A stretch of 64,000 nt of DNA from Sulfolobales archaeon. Lineage in GTDB: Archaea; Thermoproteota; Thermoprotei_A; Sulfolobales; AG1. The position numbers and the translations under genes are program-made. The stretch spans positions 1 through 64,000 of the forward strand of contig JAVZPJ010000006.1 in assembly GCA_038881635.1 (NCBI GenBank), in the 5' to 3' direction. The notes under the pieces were generated by a model, which searched no databases, had not been told where the DNA came from, and saw nothing but the letters and a program-made list of their open reading frames with translations. Below, in pieces: positions 42,307-56,521 of this stretch; positions within the stretch are counted from its first letter, which is position 1; every line of letters begins with the position of its first letter.

Positions 42307-42998
42307 TCAGCTCTTATATAAGTTTATATAAGTTGTTTTCATCGCCTCATATTTCTTCCCCTGCATCGGTCTTGGGATTGCACCACCCTTAGATGTGTTT
42401 AGGAGCATCCCTAAACCCCTACATCTTAAGTATCTATGAAATAGGTTTATACATGCGATCAAGTCTCTATCTCCTGTGAATCCGCATTTAGTGCATCTCA
42501 TTATTCTACCGCTATTATCTTTAACCTGCTTCCGCATCTCGAGCATTTTGATGATGTATTCATCGGGTTAACGTAGCTAACCAACAGTCTTCTCTCGAGA
42601 GCTTCATAGCTTATAGTGAATTGTATTTTTCTATAGAACCATAGTGATAGTTTTTTATTGAAATTACTACTTCTGTTGGCTCTATCTAATCTAGCTGTTA
42701 GTTTTCTGAGAACAGGTTTCTTACCATTATTCCTCTTACTAGATCTAACAACTGCTTTAGCGTATAAGTAGATCTGCTTAACATGATGTGCTCTAAAACC
42801 AAGCTCTCTAAGTTCTGAGTAGAATATCTTGTGTAGGGTTTTTATCGATGGTATCTCATCTAGATTCCAAACTCTGTCTACTACTAGTTGAACTGCATCA
42901 CGATAGAGGTTAAGGAACTCGGTTAATGCTTTATAGTCATCGCTACTCTCGGGGAGAGCCTTCATCTTAAGAGTCTCAATAAGCTCTCCAACCCTCAT
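42307..42998 (-). pseudogene. tnpB: Degenerate tnpB (IS605-type), internally deleted and frameshifted
   Basis: Two overlapping frames (42998-42501 and 42546-42307) together make a shrunken TnpB of about 225 residues against about 400 normally. The first carries N-terminal helices and VSYVNPMNTSSKCSRCGS; the second MRCTKCGFTGDRDLIACINL, so the zinc finger and last RuvC aspartate survive, read in different frames. The central RuvC part with the first Asp and Glu is missing. A one-base shift near 42530 separates the frames. No TnpA neighbour is seen. It is probably a dead insertion remnant. Confidence 0.85.
42392..42425 (-). ncRNA. Possible guide-RNA scaffold hairpin at the 3' end of tnpB
   Basis: Inside the tnpB 3' part, TTTAGG (42398-42403) pairs with CCTAAA (42410-42415), flanked by GATGT (42392-42396) and ACATC (42421-42425). 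TnpB guide RNAs come from the 3' end of tnpB, so a remnant scaffold is plausible. RNA status is inferred from folding only. Confidence 0.35.
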
Positions 42999-47284: not shown

Positions 47285-48034
47285 ATGGATTTTAATGCCG
47301 GGTTTGTTCTGAACCTGATCTACGGGATCATAATAATAGTTGTGGTAGCAGTATTACTTATCATAGCAAACAGATACCTATTCAAGTTTCTGAGAATAAG
47401 ATTTAGAAAAAGCATTGTGTTATTCTTCGAGATGGTGATTGCTCTTCTTATAATATCATTTGCCGTGGGAAGTATAGCATCTTTATACGGCTTTCGAGAG
47501 GTTTTTATAGTTGTCTTCGGTCTCTTCATATTAGGAGTTCTAGCAATAATAATAGGATCTAGACATGTGCTAGAAGAATACATGAGCGGGGTTCTAGCAA
47601 TAGAGATCCATGATCTAAGGGTTGGAGACTATATAGAGGTGGATCATGTGAGAGGCTATATAGTAGCTCTTAATGAAACCTCGATAGTGGTAAGAGACAT
47701 GCATAGAGATCTTGTATACATACCATATACAAAGCTGCTTCACTCACCATTCAAAAGATTCAGAGTAGAGGAAGGACATGAGATCGTGATCCCGATCGTG
47801 ATACCCTACGTATCAGATCTTGCAGAGCTGAGAAACAGGATCATGGAGAGAGCACGAGAGCTAGGTATTGAGAATGTAAGGATCTCTATTGAGAGTCTGA
47901 GTGAGAAGAGTATAAGACTTATAATAAGAGGGATCATAAGAGACCTCAGGAGAGAAGAAGAGATAAGATACTCGATGCTAGATGAGATCTATAGCAGAGC
48001 ATTCCAGAAGATCAGAGAAAACAGATCTGTGTAG
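47285..48034 (+). CDS. MscS-family mechanosensitive channel
   Basis: This 249-residue protein has three hydrophobic helices, then GSRHVLEEYMSGVLAIEIHDLRVGDYIEVDHVRGYI, the pore-helix-to-beta-domain transition of MscS. The beta domain (VVRDMHRDLVYIPYTKLLHSPF) and C-terminal alpha/beta part follow. It would release solutes at hypo-osmotic shock. It starts 101 bases after the TM-only relative. Short (MscS is about 286 residues). Confidence 0.85.
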   Translation: MDFNAGFVLNLIYGIIIIVVVAVLLIIANRYLFKFLRIRFRKSIVLFFEMVIALLIISFAVGSIASLYGFREVFIVVFGLFILGVLAIIIGSRHVLEEYMSGVLAIEIHDLRVGDYIEVDHVRGYIVALNETSIVVRDMHRDLVYIPYTKLLHSPFKRFRVEEGHEIVIPIVIPYVSDLAELRNRIMERARELGIENVRISIESLSEKSIRLIIRGIIRDLRREEEIRYSMLDEIYSRAFQKIRENRSV

Positions 48035-48135
48035 AATCTCTAGATAATACACGAATCGATCTCGCATCATCTCAGATGAAAGAATAAAGCTTCTAATCCT
48101 ATAGCAAGGTTAAGCTCCTTCAACAGAAAGCTATC

Positions 48136-48266
48136 ACTATTTCTCGGTAGATGGCTGGGAGGCTGGATATAAAAAGCATGAAAAACTATGAACAGCCATC
48201 TACCTCTCAACGGCTTTCTTCCTCCCCTGCCCCGCCTGCGGGAGCTCGTCTCCAGCAGTAGTTGGC
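48136..48266 (+). repeat. Repeat R1 copy A with invertible-looking 12-bp arms
   Basis: This unit has left arm GGTAGATGGCTG (48146-48157), a 35-base loop (48158-48192) and right arm CAGCCATCTACC (48193-48204), perfect inverted repeats. A GC-rich flank with CTGCGGGAG/CTCCAGCAG (one mismatch) follows. The loop contains TATA-like GATATAAAAAG on the plus strand. Copy B is at 56050-56180, reversed in its flanks but with the loop in the same plus-strand direction. It lies 107 bases before a glycosyltransferase gene. Confidence 0.75.
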
Positions 48267-48372
48267 GATATCTAAACAAGGATGTGGTCTATGTTGAAAT
48301 CACGAGAAAACATAATAATGCTATAAATTAAAATCCCATGAAATATAACACTTATTACTTGGGTATGTTGTC

Positions 48373-49179
48373 TTGATCAAAGTACTCACATTGTACTTTA
48401 CTAGGGATAAACTAACATTTAACCCAAGAAGTCTTGAAAGCGTAGTAAATCAAATTAATGTATCACAAGACATCTACGTAATTTCAGCTGAGCCTATTGA
48501 TCTTTGGAATTATGGTTTCCACATATCAAACGTTGTCATTCCAACGAAATCAACATGGCCTGTCCCCATTAAAGTAGGATATTCATTTAACGCAGCTTTA
48601 GTTAAGATTAACAAGGAAATAGATCGTTATGATTATGTATTCAAAGTTGATGGTGATGTTATCTTACCCAAGGATTATCTAATTAACCTCGCATCTCGTA
48701 AGCCTCATGTTGCTGGTATAGGACCTGCTTTGTTAATCTCTACTGCTTTCTTCAAGAAATTATTGAAAAACAAGTATCCTGTAACGTACTGTGATGACGG
48801 CTTCATATTTGCACTAGCGATCTCAAAAGGTATGTGGCCGTTACATTATACTGGTAGAGGTGATGTCATAATACCTCCAATTATAACACTCAAGGATAGA
48901 GAGTATATTTACGGAGTAGAGTACTATAGATGGGGTTTACCTCTTATATTATTAGTAATACTTCCCATTACGAGAATATACCTTAAAATAACTAAGAAAA
49001 TGAAGGAGTATCAACGTAAAGACTTAAGAGCATACTTATACAATATAGTAGGCTACGTTCACGCACTTATTCACAATGTAAAGAAGTATGAATTTAGCCG
49101 GGAGTATGGGAGAATGAGAATTATACACTTGTACCATAAATTCCGGGCAACTAAGACTGTTGATTTCCATGGGGATTAA
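48373..49179 (+). CDS. GT2-like glycosyltransferase
   Basis: This 268-residue GT-A type protein has VDGDVILPKDYL as the DxD metal motif and an acceptor-side YCDDGFIFALAISKG. No membrane anchor is obvious except a hydrophobic stretch near 195-215. Codon use (CGT, TTA, AAC) is unlike neighbours, which use AGA and TCT heavily. It overlaps the convergent gene by 4 bases. TTG start. Probably acquired; likely makes cell-surface glycan. Confidence 0.75.
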   Translation: MIKVLTLYFTRDKLTFNPRSLESVVNQINVSQDIYVISAEPIDLWNYGFHISNVVIPTKSTWPVPIKVGYSFNAALVKINKEIDRYDYVFKVDGDVILPKDYLINLASRKPHVAGIGPALLISTAFFKKLLKNKYPVTYCDDGFIFALAISKGMWPLHYTGRGDVIIPPIITLKDREYIYGVEYYRWGLPLILLVILPITRIYLKITKKMKEYQRKDLRAYLYNIVGYVHALIHNVKKYEFSREYGRMRIIHLYHKFRATKTVDFHGD

Positions 49180-50486
49180 TTTTTAAGCCTGCGAAGTAAG
49201 ATATCTATTCCAACGTTCTTTCTCATGGCTTTATCTGGTATTACTAGATACAACAACAAGTCCTTGAGCGTAAAAGAGCCTCCGCTCCAAGTGGAGTAAT
49301 CAAGCCGCAGATAGTCTAAATAATTAATATCGGCTCTTGGAATAAACTTATCAAACCATTCTTCGATTTTCTTTCTAAAATAATGATCCTTCATGATACC
49401 ATGTAAAGTTCCAAGCACTGCATATATAGCTACGCGCGGATTTGGTTTTACACTTGTAGAAAGGTTGATCAAGAGTTCGTTCTTCACGAGTCTTCTTTTT
49501 ATCAATTGTTTAAAGTTCAAAGCATTTACTATTGAGTAAGGGATGCTGTAAATAAACGATAGAAATTCGTGTAAAGCTTTACGGCTACCCGTGAGGGGAT
49601 TGAGCAGGATGTTATTTCTGAACACGTAATATAGTCTAACACTATTCACTTTCTGCTGAGTTGCAACGTAATGTATTCCCCCGGTCTTTGTTAAAACTAC
49701 GCTGAAATATCCTCTCTTCGCGTTTTCTAGCCCACATGAGATATCATCCCCACCGATGTAGAAGTAAGGATAGATGGGAGCTGAGTTTGGATTATATAAA
49801 GTAAAAGAAGCTGGAACATGCGATGATAGTAAGAACTCGGGTAAATTTTCTTTTTTAAGAATTATACTATTGAACTCCTCTCGTGACATTACAGGTAATA
49901 TCATGAATGATTGATTAAGAACGTTCACGTAGTTTATGTTGGGTGCTAATAGTTTAGAACGTTCAGCCTCTTCACGTACGAAGTTCATGATTTCATCTAG
50001 ATCTTGCGCGTGCTTAAGGCTCGGATTTTCCAAGAGGACATCCCTGTCTCCTACTATATGCATTGTTGTTATTGCATGGTACTTGATTTTTAGTGAGTTA
50101 AATTTCTCAGCTGTATCTATCATCTCCTTGACTATGTTTGGATAGAGAATAATGAAATCATTATCAATATTTAATATGTATTTAGCACCTCTTTTCTTTT
50201 CTAAGAGAAAACCATAAGTTATCGCAAAGCTATTTCCCAGGTCCTTATCAAATCTTTTGCTCTCGAAATTTACAGACATTTCCTTCGATAATCTTGACCC
50301 GAGGTTGACCAGTTTCTCGTATGATCCATCAAAAGACGCATTATCTATAAGTAATACCCGGCCATCTATGAAATCACCGAGTCTAGCCAATGTCTTAAAA
50401 GCACTATATAAGCTGAGCATTGATATAGGTAAATAGTTATTTGAATTAAAGTTCTGAGTAACAATACTTACTTTTATCTTACTCAT
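49176..50486 (-). CDS. GT2-family glycosyltransferase, long form
   Basis: This 436-residue protein starts MSKIKVSIVTQNFNSNNYLPISM, the GT2 N-terminus. LLIDNASFDGSYEKL and NIDNDFIILYP supply nucleotide and metal binding. A GGDDISCGLENAKRGYF segment resembles rhamnosyl-transferase-like acceptor sites, and a helical C-terminal extension follows. Codons again differ from the host bias. Together with the convergent gene it forms a two-gene glycan cassette, flanked by R1 on the left and transposon debris on the right. Confidence 0.82.
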   Translation of the reverse strand: MSKIKVSIVTQNFNSNNYLPISMLSLYSAFKTLARLGDFIDGRVLLIDNASFDGSYEKLVNLGSRLSKEMSVNFESKRFDKDLGNSFAITYGFLLEKKRGAKYILNIDNDFIILYPNIVKEMIDTAEKFNSLKIKYHAITTMHIVGDRDVLLENPSLKHAQDLDEIMNFVREEAERSKLLAPNINYVNVLNQSFMILPVMSREEFNSIILKKENLPEFLLSSHVPASFTLYNPNSAPIYPYFYIGGDDISCGLENAKRGYFSVVLTKTGGIHYVATQQKVNSVRLYYVFRNNILLNPLTGSRKALHEFLSFIYSIPYSIVNALNFKQLIKRRLVKNELLINLSTSVKPNPRVAIYAVLGTLHGIMKDHYFRKKIEEWFDKFIPRADINYLDYLRLDYSTWSGGSFTLKDLLLYLVIPDKAMRKNVGIDILLRRLKN

Positions 50487-50620
50487 CTCAGACCTCCTCC
50501 CGCCCTAGAGTGCGAGGTTCTGAGACGGTTTAGAGCTACATTCCCGGCTCTCACCGGATTTAGCTCTGCGCCCGGTCTCAGGCACATTAACCCTACCCCG
50601 TGTAGAGCGGGGCTCGGGGG
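50487..50620 (-). ncRNA. GC-rich nested hairpin and possible TnpB 3' end
   Basis: CTGAGAC (50520-50526) pairs with GTCTCAG (50575-50581), inside which AGAGCTA (50532-50538) pairs with TAGCTCT (50561-50567) and CCGG pairs with CCGG (50544-50547 and 50554-50557). A second hairpin CCCCG/CGGGG is at 50596-50612. The block is far richer in GC than the surroundings, as for structured RNA in hyperthermophiles. The minus-strand frame reads like a TnpB tail (GAELNPVRAGNVALN), so a guide-RNA remnant is possible; orientation is inferred. Confidence 0.45.
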
Positions 50621-50824
50621 TATGATTCTTATCTTGAGCAGTATGACCATCTCCAGAATAATGCTAAAGATTACAGAGCTTATAAAACCTCACCACACCA
50701 TCCCAAGGTTGAGTACTACGAGCCTGTTGAATATCTTATCATAATGTTCTGCAAGAAGGGTGGCACAGCACTTAGATATGATAGAATACACGAAGTTTAC
50801 AATTCTGAAAGCCTCGCCCTTTAG
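50621..50824 (+). pseudogene. Unnamed coding remnant next to hairpin
   Basis: An open frame with no usual start begins YDSYLEQYDHLQNNAKDYRA and includes HHPKVEYYEPVEYLIIMFC; it ends at a stop at 50822. It reads like a broken protein gene. No homologue is recognised. It lies in the debris between the glycosyltransferase genes and repeat R2. Confidence 0.3.
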
Positions 50825-50920
50825 AGTTGTATTCTCTTTTCTCGATTCTCACCTTCGCAACTATTGCCGCATGAAGCTCTTTGACAACCACTGTATCCCC
50901 TGGCCTGTGAAGACCTGCGT

Positions 50921-51143
50921 AGACTGTGTCTTCTGTAGAAGTTTTTAAGCTGTTTTAGCTGCTATAGGTTCCTGAAGATATGTATCTCGAGGTAGGCTCC
51001 GTGATGCCTGCTGATATAGCTCTCGATGATCCTGCGAATGGTGAGCAGGTGCTGAGGGAGAAGCCCGTGCTGATAATACCCAAGATAATCTAAAACACTT
51101 GAACGAATTCAAGTATGCTACGCGGGTAGCCACCTTTTCATCA
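50921..51143 (+). repeat. Repeat R2 copy A
   Basis: Bases 50921-51098 are identical, on the opposite strand, to 56410-56233 (178 bases by eye). The next 44 bases are about 70 percent identical to copy B, differing mostly by transitions, and similarity fades by about 51143. A 37-codon plus-strand frame (50980-51093, starting MYLEVGSVMPADIALDD) and an opposite frame both stay open in it. Which, if any, is real is unknown. Confidence 0.85.
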
Positions 51144-51253
51144 GACACGTAAGATATGGTGAGAGAAGTAGTATCAGGGTCTTCGGAGTTATGAGATCCG
51201 TTGCAAGCCTCTGTCTAAGCTAGGTTCCTAGTAATGGTTGAAGAGATCTTTGT

Positions 51254-52603
51254 CTAGGCAGTGTTCTCTCTTCTCTTCATATAAAGATATAGAATGATTC
51301 CAATAAAAGCCCATATTCCTATGACTCCTACTGCACTGTATTTTTCTATGAGGTTGAATGCTAATGCCATGATCATTATAGGTGTTCCTATGAGTACTGT
51401 TACTGGTACATCTCTGATTCGTGGTGTTGAGAAGCCTCCGTAAAGTACTCCTCTTCTGGAGAGCACTCCCAGTGATATTGCTACTATGAGATAGTTGATT
51501 AGAGACCCTATCGCGTATATCTCTAGTATTAGAGAGATCTCTCCAGGTATTATTAGAACTAATGAGATTAGGTATGCTATTACCAGGGATATGTATGGGG
51601 TTCTAAATTTAGGATGTACTCTACCAAAGATCTGGTGGGTCATTCTATCTTGAGATAGAATATAGAGGAGTCTTGAGAATGCTACATAACCTGTCAGAGC
51701 AGCCATGAGCATTATAAGGATTATATTAACCGCTATTAGAGGAGCTATTAAGAGCGATATATAAGGTGTTCTCTCCGCGATCATGAAGATTGCTAGTGCA
51801 GGATTCTCTTGAAGAGATCTATGTGGTATCATGTTCATGAGAAGTATTGAAAGCGATAGACTGTAAAAGGCTCCGATCATTATCACCAGTATTGTGGCTC
51901 TAGGTATCTGGATCAAAGGTTTTCGAGCTTCACCAGCTAGCTGACCTATAGAATCTAATCCTGTGAATCCTCTCGATGCCAGAGCTAGAGATAAGAGTAG
52001 ATCTGGTGGTTGAATTCCCTTCCACATGAATTGAGGAGCCTCGTAAAAGCTCTGATGGAGGAGCATATAGAATATGTTATAGAGAGATAGAAATCCTACG
52101 AGGATAATATCTAGGATAGCTATCGACATAGCCACTCTAGCAGATTCTCTGATCCCTATTAGAGTTAAGATGAATAGCACTGTTGAGAGGATTAATGCAA
52201 CAATGTTCTCGGGTATCTGAGTCATCGCACCATGTATATGATAAAGTTCTAACATGCTTCTCAGATATGTAGCCGCATCAAGAGTTCCATAGCTTATCAT
52301 TATAATCTGGTCTAGTGAGAGCAGCCATACTGATATGAGAGCTATTAGAGATCCTAGAGAGTATCTCACATATATATAGGATCCTCCTACCTCGGGAAAA
52401 TGAGATCCCATCTCACCATATATGAGTGCTATGAGAATCATGAGAATCACAGCGTACAAGGCTATAAAGAGAAAACTTCCTCCAGCATATAATGCTATGA
52501 ATCCTATCATGAGATAGTATGTAGACTGAGAATCGCTGTGCACTAGGGAGTATATATCGAATGTATTAAGATCTCTTTTAAGCCAGTCTCTTCTAAGCTT
52601 CAT
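51254..52603 (-). CDS. APC-family amino acid permease
   Basis: This 449-residue membrane protein has about twelve hydrophobic helices. The first helix breaks (ALYAGGSFLFIALYAVILM) and YGEMGSHFPEVGGSYIYVRYSLG match APC amino acid/polyamine permeases. It lies after a TrkA-like gene, whose stop overlaps an alternative earlier TTG start at 52621; ATG 52603 just after that stop is preferred. The TrkA-like protein may gate or regulate it. Substrate is unknown. Confidence 0.85.
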   Translation of the reverse strand: MKLRRDWLKRDLNTFDIYSLVHSDSQSTYYLMIGFIALYAGGSFLFIALYAVILMILIALIYGEMGSHFPEVGGSYIYVRYSLGSLIALISVWLLSLDQIIMISYGTLDAATYLRSMLELYHIHGAMTQIPENIVALILSTVLFILTLIGIRESARVAMSIAILDIILVGFLSLYNIFYMLLHQSFYEAPQFMWKGIQPPDLLLSLALASRGFTGLDSIGQLAGEARKPLIQIPRATILVIMIGAFYSLSLSILLMNMIPHRSLQENPALAIFMIAERTPYISLLIAPLIAVNIILIMLMAALTGYVAFSRLLYILSQDRMTHQIFGRVHPKFRTPYISLVIAYLISLVLIIPGEISLILEIYAIGSLINYLIVAISLGVLSRRGVLYGGFSTPRIRDVPVTVLIGTPIMIMALAFNLIEKYSAVGVIGIWAFIGIILYLYMKRRENTA

Positions 52604-52604
52604 T

Positions 52605-53294
52605 TCACTTAACCAGTTCAAAAAGATTATCTAGAGGACCTATAACAACTATGTAATCTCCTTCCTGAATAACCTCATCAGGAGCGTTATGAAGATCCTC
52701 AGAACCTCTTATGATCATAACACTAACATTATACTTCTCCTCGATCTCTCTAATAGTGCTTCCAAGAATCTTCATATCTCCTGTTACAAAGCTTTCCAGC
52801 ATTGAGACTCTTCCTCTGATCGGTGTGATCCTATAGAATTTAAGAGAAAGAGTTCTCTGAATCCTTCCAAGAATGCAGCCTGGAACGTTAATCACGCTAA
52901 AACCCTCAGCCTCAGCCTCGGAAATCTTCTCACTACTCTTGAGAGCTACAATGATCACGGGAATACCCTGTTCCTTCATATACCTCGCAACCTTGATATT
53001 AAGATCCTCGTTAGGAGAAATGAGTATAGATGCTTCTACATAGTTGAACTCTACATCTCTTAAAACCTCTGATAAGATGCTCTCATCAATACTATTCATA
53101 TCTGGCACAAGCCTGATGTAAACAGGTTTTCTCACGAAGAGCTCTCCCCGCTCCTCAACTGTTATCACGTGAACACTATAACCATTCTCCACAAGCACGT
53201 CTACAAGCATTAGAGAGGTGTCATCCATGCTGTCGAGAACTATAGCTTCTCTTCTCAAATCTATCAGCCTACCACTCAGTCTCGATTCTACCAA
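52605..53294 (-). CDS. TrkA/RCK-like nucleotide-binding protein
   Basis: This 229-residue protein has a degenerate N-terminal RCK_N-type domain and a C-terminal RCK_C-type domain (about 155-229: SMLESFVTGDMKILGSTIREIEEKYNVSVMIIRG, IQEGDYIVVIGP). It is encoded just before an APC permease. The TrkA_C domain is known to regulate permeases; a permease-specific regulator is inferred. The classic glycine-rich NAD motif is not seen, so ligand binding is uncertain. Confidence 0.78.
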   Translation of the reverse strand: MVESRLSGRLIDLRREAIVLDSMDDTSLMLVDVLVENGYSVHVITVEERGELFVRKPVYIRLVPDMNSIDESILSEVLRDVEFNYVEASILISPNEDLNIKVARYMKEQGIPVIIVALKSSEKISEAEAEGFSVINVPGCILGRIQRTLSLKFYRITPIRGRVSMLESFVTGDMKILGSTIREIEEKYNVSVMIIRGSEDLHNAPDEVIQEGDYIVVIGPLDNLFELVK

Positions 53295-53370
53295 TAAAAT
53301 GAATTTAAGAGTTCAGATATTTATTTATCTACCTCGCATCATAGAACAAACATTGTTTCAAACACATTAG

Positions 53371-53447
53371 TGGTGGGGCCGCGGGGATTTGAACCCCGGA
53401 CCACGAGGGCCCAAGCCTCGCATCCTACCAAGCTAGACTACGGCCCC
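53371..53447 (-). tRNA. tRNA-Pro (UGG)
   Basis: Acceptor GGGGCCG pairs with CGGCCCC. The D arm, anticodon loop CTTGGGC (anticodon TGG) and GTTCAAATC T-loop are all present. The 3' CCA is encoded. No intron. Confidence 0.95.
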
Positions 53448-53549
53448 ACCGCATGATATTTTAATGGTAGGGGAGTCTTAAATATTTCGAGAGAAGATCT
53501 TGATTATAGGATAGATAGAATCTCGCCAGAGGATCTTGAGATCCTCATT

Positions 53550-54161
53550 CTAAGATGAAGAAGATCTCTTCTTCATATACTCATCGATTACTTCTTTCAA
53601 AGCTCTTCCTCTATGGCTGATCCATATCTTAATATCTTCACCTAGTTCTGCGAATGTTTTATCATAATTCTCTGGAATGAATATAGGGTCGAAGCCAAAG
53701 CCTTTAAATCCTCTGATCTCTCTACTGATTCTTCCACGTACTATGCCTGTTGCCAGTCTCAGATTCTTTTCTCCTTTGAATCTATATGCTATCACAGCTT
53801 TGAAATAGGCTTCTCTATTGTTCTTCTCCTCTAATAGTTTCAGCACTCCTTCTAATCCTATGGTTTTGTATACGTAGCTTGAGAAAGGTCCTGGAAAGCC
53901 TTTGAGAGACTCTATGAAAAGCCCTGAATCTTCTCTCATAATAATATCCCACTTCTCAGCTTCTCTTATCTGATCTAATGCGTTTTCAAGTGTGTAGAGT
54001 GCTATCTTCTCTAACTCTTCTTCTTGTATCTCTATCTTTCTAATGCTATCCGGCATTCCATCTACTATGAATTCTACTCCTGGGTATAGTCTTTCTAGGA
54101 GGAGTCTTGTCTCAAGAATCTTGTTAGTGTTATTGGTCAGATTAAGTATTCTAATGATCAA
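53550..54161 (-). CDS. XTP/dITP diphosphatase (Ham1/RdgB family)
   Basis: This 203-residue housecleaning enzyme hydrolyses ITP, XTP and related noncanonical nucleotides. Motifs are REDSGLFIESLKGFPGPFSSYV, GFKGFGFDPIF and SHRGRA. The N-terminal motif is atypical (LNLTNNTNK rather than FxTxNxxK) but still has the conserved TNK. It overlaps the PLD-like gene by 4 bases (ATGA). Confidence 0.88.
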   Translation of the reverse strand: MIIRILNLTNNTNKILETRLLLERLYPGVEFIVDGMPDSIRKIEIQEEELEKIALYTLENALDQIREAEKWDIIMREDSGLFIESLKGFPGPFSSYVYKTIGLEGVLKLLEEKNNREAYFKAVIAYRFKGEKNLRLATGIVRGRISREIRGFKGFGFDPIFIPENYDKTFAELGEDIKIWISHRGRALKEVIDEYMKKRSSSS

Positions 54162-54757
54162 ATGCTTCTCCCCTTACTCCATATATCCTCAAAATATCTG
54201 ATCATGCTCTCTCCAACACTCTGATCATATATCACTACAGAGACTTCATGATTTCTTGTGAGAGCTGACTCAGTCCAGTTATGAGATCCTATGAATACAA
54301 TGTATCCATCGATTATAACGATCTTGGCATGAGTAGTTTTAGAAGCACTTTCATCAAGCTTTATAGAGATGCTCATGTTCTTAAGAAACGATATAGTCTC
54401 GGGATAGCTCTGCATGGTAGTGTCATCGACGATGATCTTCACATCAACACCTCTCCTCTTTAGATCTGCTAGAGTATATAGAAGGATATTCACAGGATCA
54501 TTATACTGCTTAGGATCGTATTTTATAACGTACATTATAACGTGCACACTCTTATTAGCTCTATCAAGCCACCAACGCAGAGTATCATAGTAGTCTTTAT
54601 CAGTTAAAACTCTATAGACTCCCGCACCGGAAGATGAAACGTTAACGCTCTGAGAAACATTAGATCTATAATATTCGAACCCTACCTCAAAGCCTGCAAG
54701 AAATCCTAAGATGAAAACAACTAAAATAATCACTCCAAAGGATCTTTTCAAAACCAT
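54158..54757 (-). CDS. Exported PLD-like phosphodiesterase/nuclease, single HKD motif
   Basis: This 199-residue protein has an N-terminal membrane/signal helix (GVIILVVFILGFLAGFEVG) and a single HKD motif HAKIVIIDGYIVFIGSHNWTESAL. Single-motif proteins dimerise to make the active site. A serine/valine linker (about 35-50) separates helix and domain. Probably external; substrate (DNA or phospholipid) unclear. It precedes Ham1 in a coupled unit. Confidence 0.8.
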   Translation of the reverse strand: MVLKRSFGVIILVVFILGFLAGFEVGFEYYRSNVSQSVNVSSSGAGVYRVLTDKDYYDTLRWWLDRANKSVHVIMYVIKYDPKQYNDPVNILLYTLADLKRRGVDVKIIVDDTTMQSYPETISFLKNMSISIKLDESASKTTHAKIVIIDGYIVFIGSHNWTESALTRNHEVSVVIYDQSVGESMIRYFEDIWSKGRSI

Positions 54758-54779
54758 TAAGCTCGCTCCTCATGAATAG

Positions 54780-55062
54780 AAGAGATTACAGAACCTATAT
54801 AAATGCTTTAAGAACTATATATTCCTGAATCTATGCATCCTAAACGAAGCTCTAGCCGAAGTCTACAAGGTTGTGAATGCTATCAGATACCAGATGTCAT
54901 ACAGAACACTCGTAGCTGTAGGTGGAAGCTTAGACAGAATATAGAATCTGCTAAACCTTTCAGAGAACAAGCTAGAACTATGGTTAGAGGATCTAAGCAG
55001 GAGGTCTCTGACTCCCACCTCTTCTTTCATCTTAAACCACCCGCCTGTGATCACATATGATC
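54780..55062 (+). pseudogene. Broken reading frame, possibly a gene remnant
   Basis: A frame beginning near 54780 reads LNEALAEVYKVVNAIRYQMS and on to VGGSLDRI, then a stop at about 54943, then NLLNLSENKLELWLEDLSRR and on to NHPPVITYD to a stop at about 55070. It reads like a split protein. No family is recognised. The gap 54758-55069 is otherwise empty. Confidence 0.3.
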
Positions 55063-55069
55063 ACGTGAT

Positions 55070-55756
55070 CTAGAGTATGCCCAGTTTTCCTAGAACGCTG
55101 GGGACAGGCATGTATACTATCACAAACTCCAGCCATAATACATGAACTATGATAGAGTTTAAAACTCCGTATCTTAATGCTATGATACCCGTGATCACGC
55201 CCACGAAGAAAGCTCCTACTATTAAGACCAGGTTAAGGGTAGGCATGTGAACCAGTGTGTAGTAGAGGGTTGAGATAAGTACTGCTGTAAGATCTCTAAT
55301 ACCGAGCCTATTCTCTATAAAGTATCCCTGTACATAGCCTCTCCAGAAGATCTCTTCCATGAAACCTATGAAGGCTAGAATGATCGGTAGCAGGTTCTTG
55401 TAAGCTTTTGCCGAGATCTCTATAGATAGATAAATCGAATCAACATAAGACCATAATCCTAGTAAAATCGATAGATACCCACCTATCAGGAATACAATGT
55501 ATAGAATAGCAGTTGCGAGTACTGAGGAGATCATAGCTGAAGACAATCTACCTCTCAGCATGATCTTATAGAAAACTCCTCTTACAAGCATTATAACGAG
55601 AGATAGAGAACCCATGAAAGCTACAGAGATCGCCATTGATAAAATAAAGATCTCTCTTAACACTATAAATGATACTGGAAAGAGAAATAAAGGTAATATG
55701 ATTATCATCAGATCTATGACATCATCTCTAGACATTTTAGAAAACCATCTCCTCAT
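55070..55756 (-). CDS. CPBP-family intramembrane metalloprotease
   Basis: This 228-residue membrane protein has about seven hydrophobic helices. EEIFWRGY (E134, E135, R139) and histidines H170 (LVHMPTL) and H205 (IVHVLWLEF) fit the CPBP/Abi active-site pattern. The family includes CAAX-type proteases and bacteriocin immunity proteins. Substrate is unknown here. Confidence 0.82.
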   Translation of the reverse strand: MRRWFSKMSRDDVIDLMIIILPLFLFPVSFIVLREIFILSMAISVAFMGSLSLVIMLVRGVFYKIMLRGRLSSAMISSVLATAILYIVFLIGGYLSILLGLWSYVDSIYLSIEISAKAYKNLLPIILAFIGFMEEIFWRGYVQGYFIENRLGIRDLTAVLISTLYYTLVHMPTLNLVLIVGAFFVGVITGIIALRYGVLNSIIVHVLWLEFVIVYMPVPSVLGKLGIL

Positions 55757-55849
55757 CTCCTAAAACAATCTTATAAACTCTCAGTCAAAAACCTTTTGCA
55801 AAGGAAACCGAGTTCCACCGAGAAGATCATGAAAGCCTATGAGAAGTAG

Positions 55850-55933
55850 CGCCGGGGGCGGGATTCGAACCCGCGCGGGGTTTCCCCCACTGGCTCTCCA
55901 GGCCAGCCCCTTAGACCGCTCGGGCACCCCGGC
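55850..55933 (-). tRNA. tRNA-Ser (GGA)
   Basis: Acceptor GCCGGGG pairs with CCCCGGC. The anticodon loop CTGGAGA gives GGA. The long variable arm (GGGGGAAACCCCG region) is typical of class II tRNA-Ser. Discriminator G; CCA not encoded. Confidence 0.94.
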
Positions 55934-56049
55934 CCAATTGAGAGATAGTGTCACAGGATATATATTTTTCCTAGAGAAGAGGGTGAGAAGCTCACCACCT
56001 AGGAGACATCTCATCACTCTACTTTGCTACAAAGAGCTAGATGAACTGC

Positions 56050-56180
56050 GGGCAACTGCTGGGAACGAGCTCTCGTAGGCAGGGCTGGGAAGAAAAAGCC
56101 TTTGAGAGGTAGATAGCTGGAAGGTTGAACACAAAAAGCATTAAAAACCTATGATCAGCCATCTATCGAGAAACTGTGTC
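56050..56180 (-). repeat. Repeat R1 copy B
   Basis: Arms are GGTAGATAGCTG (56108-56119) and CAGCCATCTATC (56156-56167), around a 36-base loop. Flanks match copy A (48136-48266) in inverted orientation, but the loop matches it in direct orientation: AAAAAGCAT then AAAAAC is on the plus strand in both. Differences from copy A are mostly transitions. It is about 10 bases from R2 copy B. Confidence 0.75.
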
Positions 56181-56185
56181 AATGT

Positions 56186-56410
56186 CGTGTTCTGAGAGTG
56201 GTTGCCCGTGTTATTTGTTTGGGTTTGTTCAGGTGTTTTAGATTATCTTGGGTATTATCAGCACGGGCTTCTCCCTCAGCACCTGCTCACCATTCGCAGG
56301 ATCATCGAGAGCTATATCAGCAGGCATCACGGAGCCTACCTCGAGATACATATCTTCAGGAACCTATAGCAGCTAAAACAGCTTAAAAACTTCTACAGAA
56401 GACACAGTCT
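56186..56410 (-). repeat. Repeat R2 copy B
   Basis: Bases 56233-56410 are identical to 51098-50921 on the opposite strand, by eye; 56186-56232 resemble 51143-51099 at about 70 percent or less. The copy lies just before the promoter region of the phosphodiesterase gene. The minus-strand 37-codon frame is at 56238-56351. Confidence 0.85.
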
Positions 56411-56521
56411 TTATTCAGACGATGAATGCGGTATAGTAAGGTTTATAATTTATATATTGATTTAATAGATCGGGTGGTTTAGTCGAGAATCTTCTATATT
56501 TATATTTTAGCTGTTATCTTT
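56411..56521 (+). promoter_or_regulatory. Promoter and odd leader of the phosphodiesterase operon
   Basis: A TATA-like TTTATAATTTATATATTG is at 56442-56459 and GGGTGGT at 56472-56478. In frame with the gene, GTG 56474 is followed after one codon by a TAG stop at 56480; the frame then stays open as SRIFYIYILAVIF into the annotated GTG 56522. The start is therefore uncertain. Confidence 0.45.

Follow-up and report, generated by a model that had tools for sequence, protein, structure and literature searches.

A flipped hairpin loop in a Sulfolobales contig belongs to a dispersed mobile element with a structured RNA and most likely arose by template switching

In a 64,000-nucleotide (nt) stretch of DNA from a Sulfolobales archaeon (GenBank assembly GCA_038881635.1, contig JAVZPJ010000006.1, positions 1 to 64,000; hereafter the window), two copies of a short hairpin repeat, R1 A and R1 B, have flanks in inverted orientation, yet the loops between their arms run in the same direction. 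How did one of the loops come to be turned over relative to its surroundings? A preliminary description of this DNA proposed either an invertible promoter serving a glycosyltransferase gene downstream of copy A or a simple hairpin-mediated inversion of the loop. With a probability of roughly three in four, we consider R1 to be the 3′-terminal RNA hairpin of a mobile element whose short copies derive from a TnpB/Cas12f-like element by lacking its open reading frame (ORF), the loop of copy A having been flipped by template switching. What appeared to be a phase switch thereby becomes a readable record of hairpin mutations.

The observation that raised the question holds. The arms lie where they had been placed, as exact inverted 12-mers in A and with each arm one mismatch off the 12-mer in B; four arm matches were found against 0.23 expected, a number reached in 0 of 100 shuffles. 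In the same plus-strand direction, the two loops align with a score of 38, compared to a best score of 26 in 5000 shuffles and −20 for the reverse-complemented loops. The right flank of A, in turn, aligns with the reverse complement of the left flank of B over ~70 bp (score 68). This long shared flank exists on one side only, the other side being the short element end YTTTCTCG. Loop direction thus opposes flank direction, meaning that one copy's loop has turned over, and comparison across the whole family identifies B as the normal arrangement and A as the flipped copy, whose 3′-end remnant terminates in GAGAAATAG in place of GAGAAACGG.

Judged by their sequences, R1 A and R1 B each represent a decayed copy of a small mobile element of heat-loving archaea, the RNA of which ends in a long hairpin. 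Further copies in the source genome include L003, which has perfect 21-bp arms, and L005, whose loop is oriented as in A; in addition, contig C4 of this genome begins inside an R1 arm (C4:1; L006). Since blastn searches against the genus and family returned no R1 copies outside the source genome, a covariance model was needed, which was built from A, B and L003. It matched in 15 of 117 genomes of the order and, in a larger set, in 18 of 214, with E-values down to 2e-16 outside the source genome and often 5–15 element copies per genome in several of them. Alignment of the copies together with their flanks delimits a unit of 250–330 bp, which starts with (G)GGCTGTTTCGGTCTTCATAATCATTTG and ends with GAGAAACGGY, and in which a TTTATAAGCTTC-like TATA box, a structured stretch of ~110 nt and the R1 hairpin follow one another. 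Its edges are sharp—G/GG at the left in most copies and AAACGGY at the right, where the hairpin ends—and the flanks beyond are unrelated. Some copies interrupt genes, L137 for instance a zinc-ribbon tnpB (at its 3′ end) and L041 a gene read as cstA-like. These differing flanks and the copies within genes point to a mobile, RNA-like element. In a search for terminal inverted repeats, the element ends show only a weak CYGTTTC match to each other, no target duplication was seen in the aligned flanks, and a clean empty site was not found. The window and intact copies were compared with Rfam, and viral contigs were scanned for the loop motif, in both cases without a match.

Several observations on individual copies stand beside this. 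L137 (G016:C54) sits at the 3′ end of an ordinary tnpB in place of the protein's C-terminus. In L187 and L188 (contigs C15 and C27 of G181), the part read, ~50 bp of RNA body together with the hairpin, does not differ between the two copies, but the 3′ flanks do, which suggests recent movement. Contigs end at or inside R1 hairpins (L068 and L069, at the end of C44 and the start of C47 in G098; L006, at the start of C4 in the source genome, G000), so the assembly graphs branch there. A reading of the copies that interrupt genes as spliced introns was dropped because most copies are intergenic and joined frames are not restored as a rule.

The RNA is structured, and its structure covaries. A consensus derived from 30 copies comprises 38 pairs in five helices, with pairing maintained in 98.0% of cells; 51 cells show changes on both sides of a pair, where shuffling gives 18.5 and sliding far fewer. 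The R1 stem constitutes helix 5, in which 5 of 11 pairs have changes on both sides, and helix 4 (CCGUU/AACGG) closes this stem exactly at the element's 3′ end. Conservation stops at AAACGGY, and the 3′ end of the covarying RNA therefore coincides with the right end of the transposon. Transcription of the RNA would start from the element's own TATA box. The R1 stems measure 12–21 bp and the whole hairpins 59–80 bp.

With dozens of copies of known normal orientation at hand, loop inversion can be counted, and in loops far longer than those of earlier work. Six of the ~93 copies read carry a loop reversed relative to the RNA body, distributed over three genomes and two families: A and L005 in the source genome, L066, L090 and L106 in G001, and L075 in G090. 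L090 and L106 are without most of the RNA body, and their orientation call rests on the outer sequences GTTTCTC...CTTCTCAAC. The remaining ~85 copies are normal or too decayed to call, with B and the long-form copies described below being normal, and in two copies (L003 and L045), the hairpin is bordered by the short end on either side and has become a more perfect palindrome (U-loop-U). Among the six with a flipped loop, five show truncation or divergence. The decisive comparison is that of L066 with its unflipped sibling L072 from the same genome: the bodies are 93% identical and the re-inverted loop matches at 32 of 35 positions. As both the body and the re-inverted loop match L072, the loop must have turned over in place, inverted between a stem and flanks that did not move. 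Flips in genomes of different families are most simply explained as independent events.

Such a pattern has a precedent. Template switching at hairpins is described to have three outcomes (Monttinen and Loytynoja 2022, PMC8794818): the loop may be inverted while the stem stays intact, the stem may be extended, or compensatory changes may arise in it instantaneously. The family studied here matches this footprint in all three. The setting differs in that the loops measure ~35 nt here as opposed to 4–8 nt there, and in that the hairpins belong to copies of a mobile element rather than to rRNA genes. Template switching at the hairpin is most likely the cause of the flip in A. In A, the polymerase synthesising DNA would have switched to the opposite strand across the loop and then returned, so that the 35-nt loop was inverted on the spot between an unmoved stem and unmoved flanks. 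The flip would represent a rare outcome of mutation rather than a programmed switch, and loop inversion as such probably has no function.

As to the origin of the element, one copy (L042) has its left end followed by a 355-amino acid ORF on the opposite strand and then by the RNA and hairpin. Homologs of this ORF turned up in 28 of the 115 genomes searched, and five loci (L142, L160, L161, L164 and L166) share the layout of left end, reversed ORF, RNA and hairpin. In these long versions, an ORF of ~363 amino acids, divergent from the RNA, lies between the same ends as in the short elements; profile positions 66–167 and 152–376, contiguous in short copies, lie on either side of the ORF in long ones. 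At other loci with ORF homologs, the element profile matches only in part and less strongly. In the manner of non-autonomous miniature inverted-repeat transposable elements, the copies without the ORF thus have both ends in common with a longer, coding element, and by this layout the short elements are ORF-less forms of a TnpB-like element whose RNA and protein gene diverge. In the source genome, the family looks dead, because no match to the long-form ORF was obtained at an E-value of 1e-15 and only truncated element copies are present. Transposition functions were sought as well: no transposase ORF was seen in the long elements, and a Y1 transposase is present in 4 of the 10 copy-bearing genomes and absent from the other six, including the source genome.

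The ORF itself belongs to no Pfam family and has no match to the TNB domain (PF07282), but weakly resembles the NCBIfam entry guided_TnpB (E 1.4e-6). Residues D208, E272 and D339 of the RuvC site are invariant in 16 homologs, and the alignment of these homologs contains no CxxC pairs of a zinc ribbon before the third RuvC motif. An AlphaFold model (predicted local distance difference test score, 86) has its best Foldseek matches in Cas12f and Cas12k, followed by Fanzor2 and ISDra2 TnpB (E 1.8e-5). The ORF is therefore predicted to encode a compact TnpB/Cas12f-like RuvC nuclease. In its predicted fold and D-E-D residues, it resembles the TnpB proteins of the IS200/IS605, IS607 and IS1341 groups that work with omega RNAs (OMEGA), and the structured RNA with its 3′ end at the transposon right end resembles the guide RNAs of TnpB-type elements. 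By analogy, the RNA may guide this nuclease. The differences are that the protein lacks the zinc-ribbon cysteines, that the RNA has its own TATA box and diverges from the ORF, whereas an omega RNA overlaps the 3′ end of tnpB on the same strand, that no transposase gene was seen in the element, and that the RNA is not in Rfam. A TnpB-like element with a divergent, independently promoted RNA and RNA-only miniatures is an arrangement that we did not find in Rfam or in the literature searched. We regard it as an even bet that it represents an unrecorded RNA-guided lineage, in which a guide RNA with its own promoter diverges from a zinc-ribbon-free TnpB/Cas12f-like nuclease, guide-only miniatures spread and possibly supply the nuclease in trans with guides derived from their new flanks, and flipped loops are natural variants of the guide scaffold. 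Whether a compact nuclease of the Cas12f kind has a guide gene of its own would be directly testable.

Several points weigh against the account as a whole. Beside 30 ordinary PF07282 TnpB loci, the hairpin model and the element profile found no such hairpin, the only hit of the profile being one insertion of the element's left part (L137). In the five long loci, the RNA is located upstream of the ORF and points away from it, which sets it apart from the published omega RNAs of TnpB, and literature searches yielded no divergent TnpB guide RNA. Published inverted loops attributed to template switching reach only 7–8 nt (PMC8794818) as compared to ~35 nt here, so that the present loop would constitute an extension of the published size range. 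Lastly, cruciform or recombination routes yield the same product. Ordinary zinc-ribbon TnpBs as carriers of this RNA were considered separately and rejected after the test on the 30 loci.

It is well known that in chloroplast hairpins a small loop between short inverted arms occurs in both orientations, and inversion there has been proposed to involve extrusion of a cruciform or recombination of one arm with the other, i.e., without replication template switching. The stems of 12–21 bp seen here are long enough to extrude or pair; a cruciform route alone, however, leaves the palindromised copies L003 and L045 and the concurrent homogenisation of the stem unexplained, both of which are covered by template switching, and we consider it unlikely. 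Here, in contrast to the chloroplast cases, the arms are part of a dispersed RNA element, which allows orientation to be called against ~85 other copies. In general terms, the hairpin-mediated inversion named in the preliminary description is borne out, given that the hairpin is the terminal stem of this element and the same inversion occurs in other copies and other genomes.

Ectopic gene conversion, in which the loop of another copy would have been copied in backwards by way of the palindromic arms, draws some support from the many similar copies per genome and from arms that are interchangeable either way. It is very unlikely in our estimation, as the body (93%) and the re-inverted loop (91%) of L066 are both closest to the sibling L072, which is what inversion in place predicts. 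An assembly artefact at the hairpin appears more improbable still: all flip-bearing genomes are fragmented drafts, and the source contig C4 starts 2 nt into an R1 loop, but a whole hairpin of this size would probably fit into one short read, and the flip recurs in three genomes beside ~85 unflipped (normal or undecidable) copies from the same kind of data.

Hardly credible, finally, is a recombinase that flips the 35-bp loop between the 12-bp arms to switch the glycosyltransferase on and off: as in fim- or hin-type invertible promoters, a segment exists in two orientations between inverted repeats, and the loop of A does hold the TATA-like GATATAAAAAG noted earlier, but this motif is absent from B and most family members, a better-placed TATA-like box lies closer to the gene (Table 1), the arms form the stem in a conserved hairpin of the RNA, their length and a centre spacing of ~47 bp are, as far as is generally known, below the geometry of recombinase inversion, and Pfam found no recombinase in the window ORFs scanned (most of those of at least 100 amino acids between 28 and 63 kb). 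To our knowledge, arms of 12 bp do not offer enough room for two recombination sites.

Table 1. Positions in the window of the R1 copies and of features next to copy A.
Feature	Coordinates	Strand	Basis
R1 A left 12-bp arm (outer, short element end)	48146..48157	+	arm match
R1 A loop, 35 nt, inverted relative to family norm	48158..48192	+	loop alignment, family comparison
R1 A right 12-bp arm, RNA-body side	48193..48204	+	arm match
Copy A RNA-body remnant, profile 256-315 including arm; element reads on minus strand	48193..48259	-	nhmmer E 2.8e-9
Copy A 3′-end remnant, profile 351-375	48133..48157	-	weak nhmmer match, E 0.059, plus alignment
TATA-like box (CTATAAATTAAAAT), placed as own promoter of glycosyltransferase ORF	48321..48334	+	sequence; position relative to TTG start at 48373
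ORF downstream of copy A, glycosyltransferase according to the preliminary description, 268 amino acids	48373..49179	+	Pfam Galactosyl_T sub-threshold only, E 0.05
Decayed copy B: 3′ part of RNA body plus terminal hairpin, profile 218-378	56012..56183	+	nhmmer E 1.1e-30; cmsearch 88.4 bits
R1 B left arm, RNA-body side	56108..56119	+	arm match, one mismatch
R1 B loop, 36 nt, canonical orientation	56120..56155	+	loop alignment, family comparison
R1 B right arm, adjoining element end	56156..56167	+	arm match, one mismatch

The surroundings of the two copies fit a locus that has been rearranged. The box listed in Table 1 precedes the glycosyltransferase start by ~40 bp, with the loop of R1 A lying ~200 bp upstream. 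In three relatives, the gene for a mechanosensitive channel (MscS-like; 47285-48034) is directly followed by that for an amino-acid permease (51254-52621), which makes 48035-51250 an insertion; it carries R1 A, one copy of a second repeat, R2, and two convergent probable glycosyltransferases. On the other side, synteny with the Thermoproteota metagenome-assembled genome contig JAUQQR010000016.1 (84%) sets in at 56466, immediately to the right of R1 B and R2. The repeats mark both rearrangement joints.

R2 is a dispersed repeat of ~215–240 bp, present in the window as an inverted pair of 94% identity (50921-51133, minus strand; 56198-56410, plus strand), the latter copy beginning ~15 bp right of the end of the R1 B element. 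Further copies lie elsewhere in the source genome (G000 C2:141040, C10:30311, C1:65012 and C4:88418), and one strand of R2 contains a 37-amino acid ORF, MYLEVGSVMPADIALDDPANGEQVLREKPVLIIPKII, without a Pfam match. An open fragment at 50618-50821 (plus strand), YDSYLEQYDHLQNNAKDYRAYKTSPHHPKVEYYEPVEYLIIMFCKKGGTALRYDRIHEVYNSESLAL, likewise without a Pfam match, resembles the decayed end of a gene. At 42501-42998 (minus strand), the window also contains the remnant of a zinc-ribbon TnpB gene (PF07282, E 2.8e-6).

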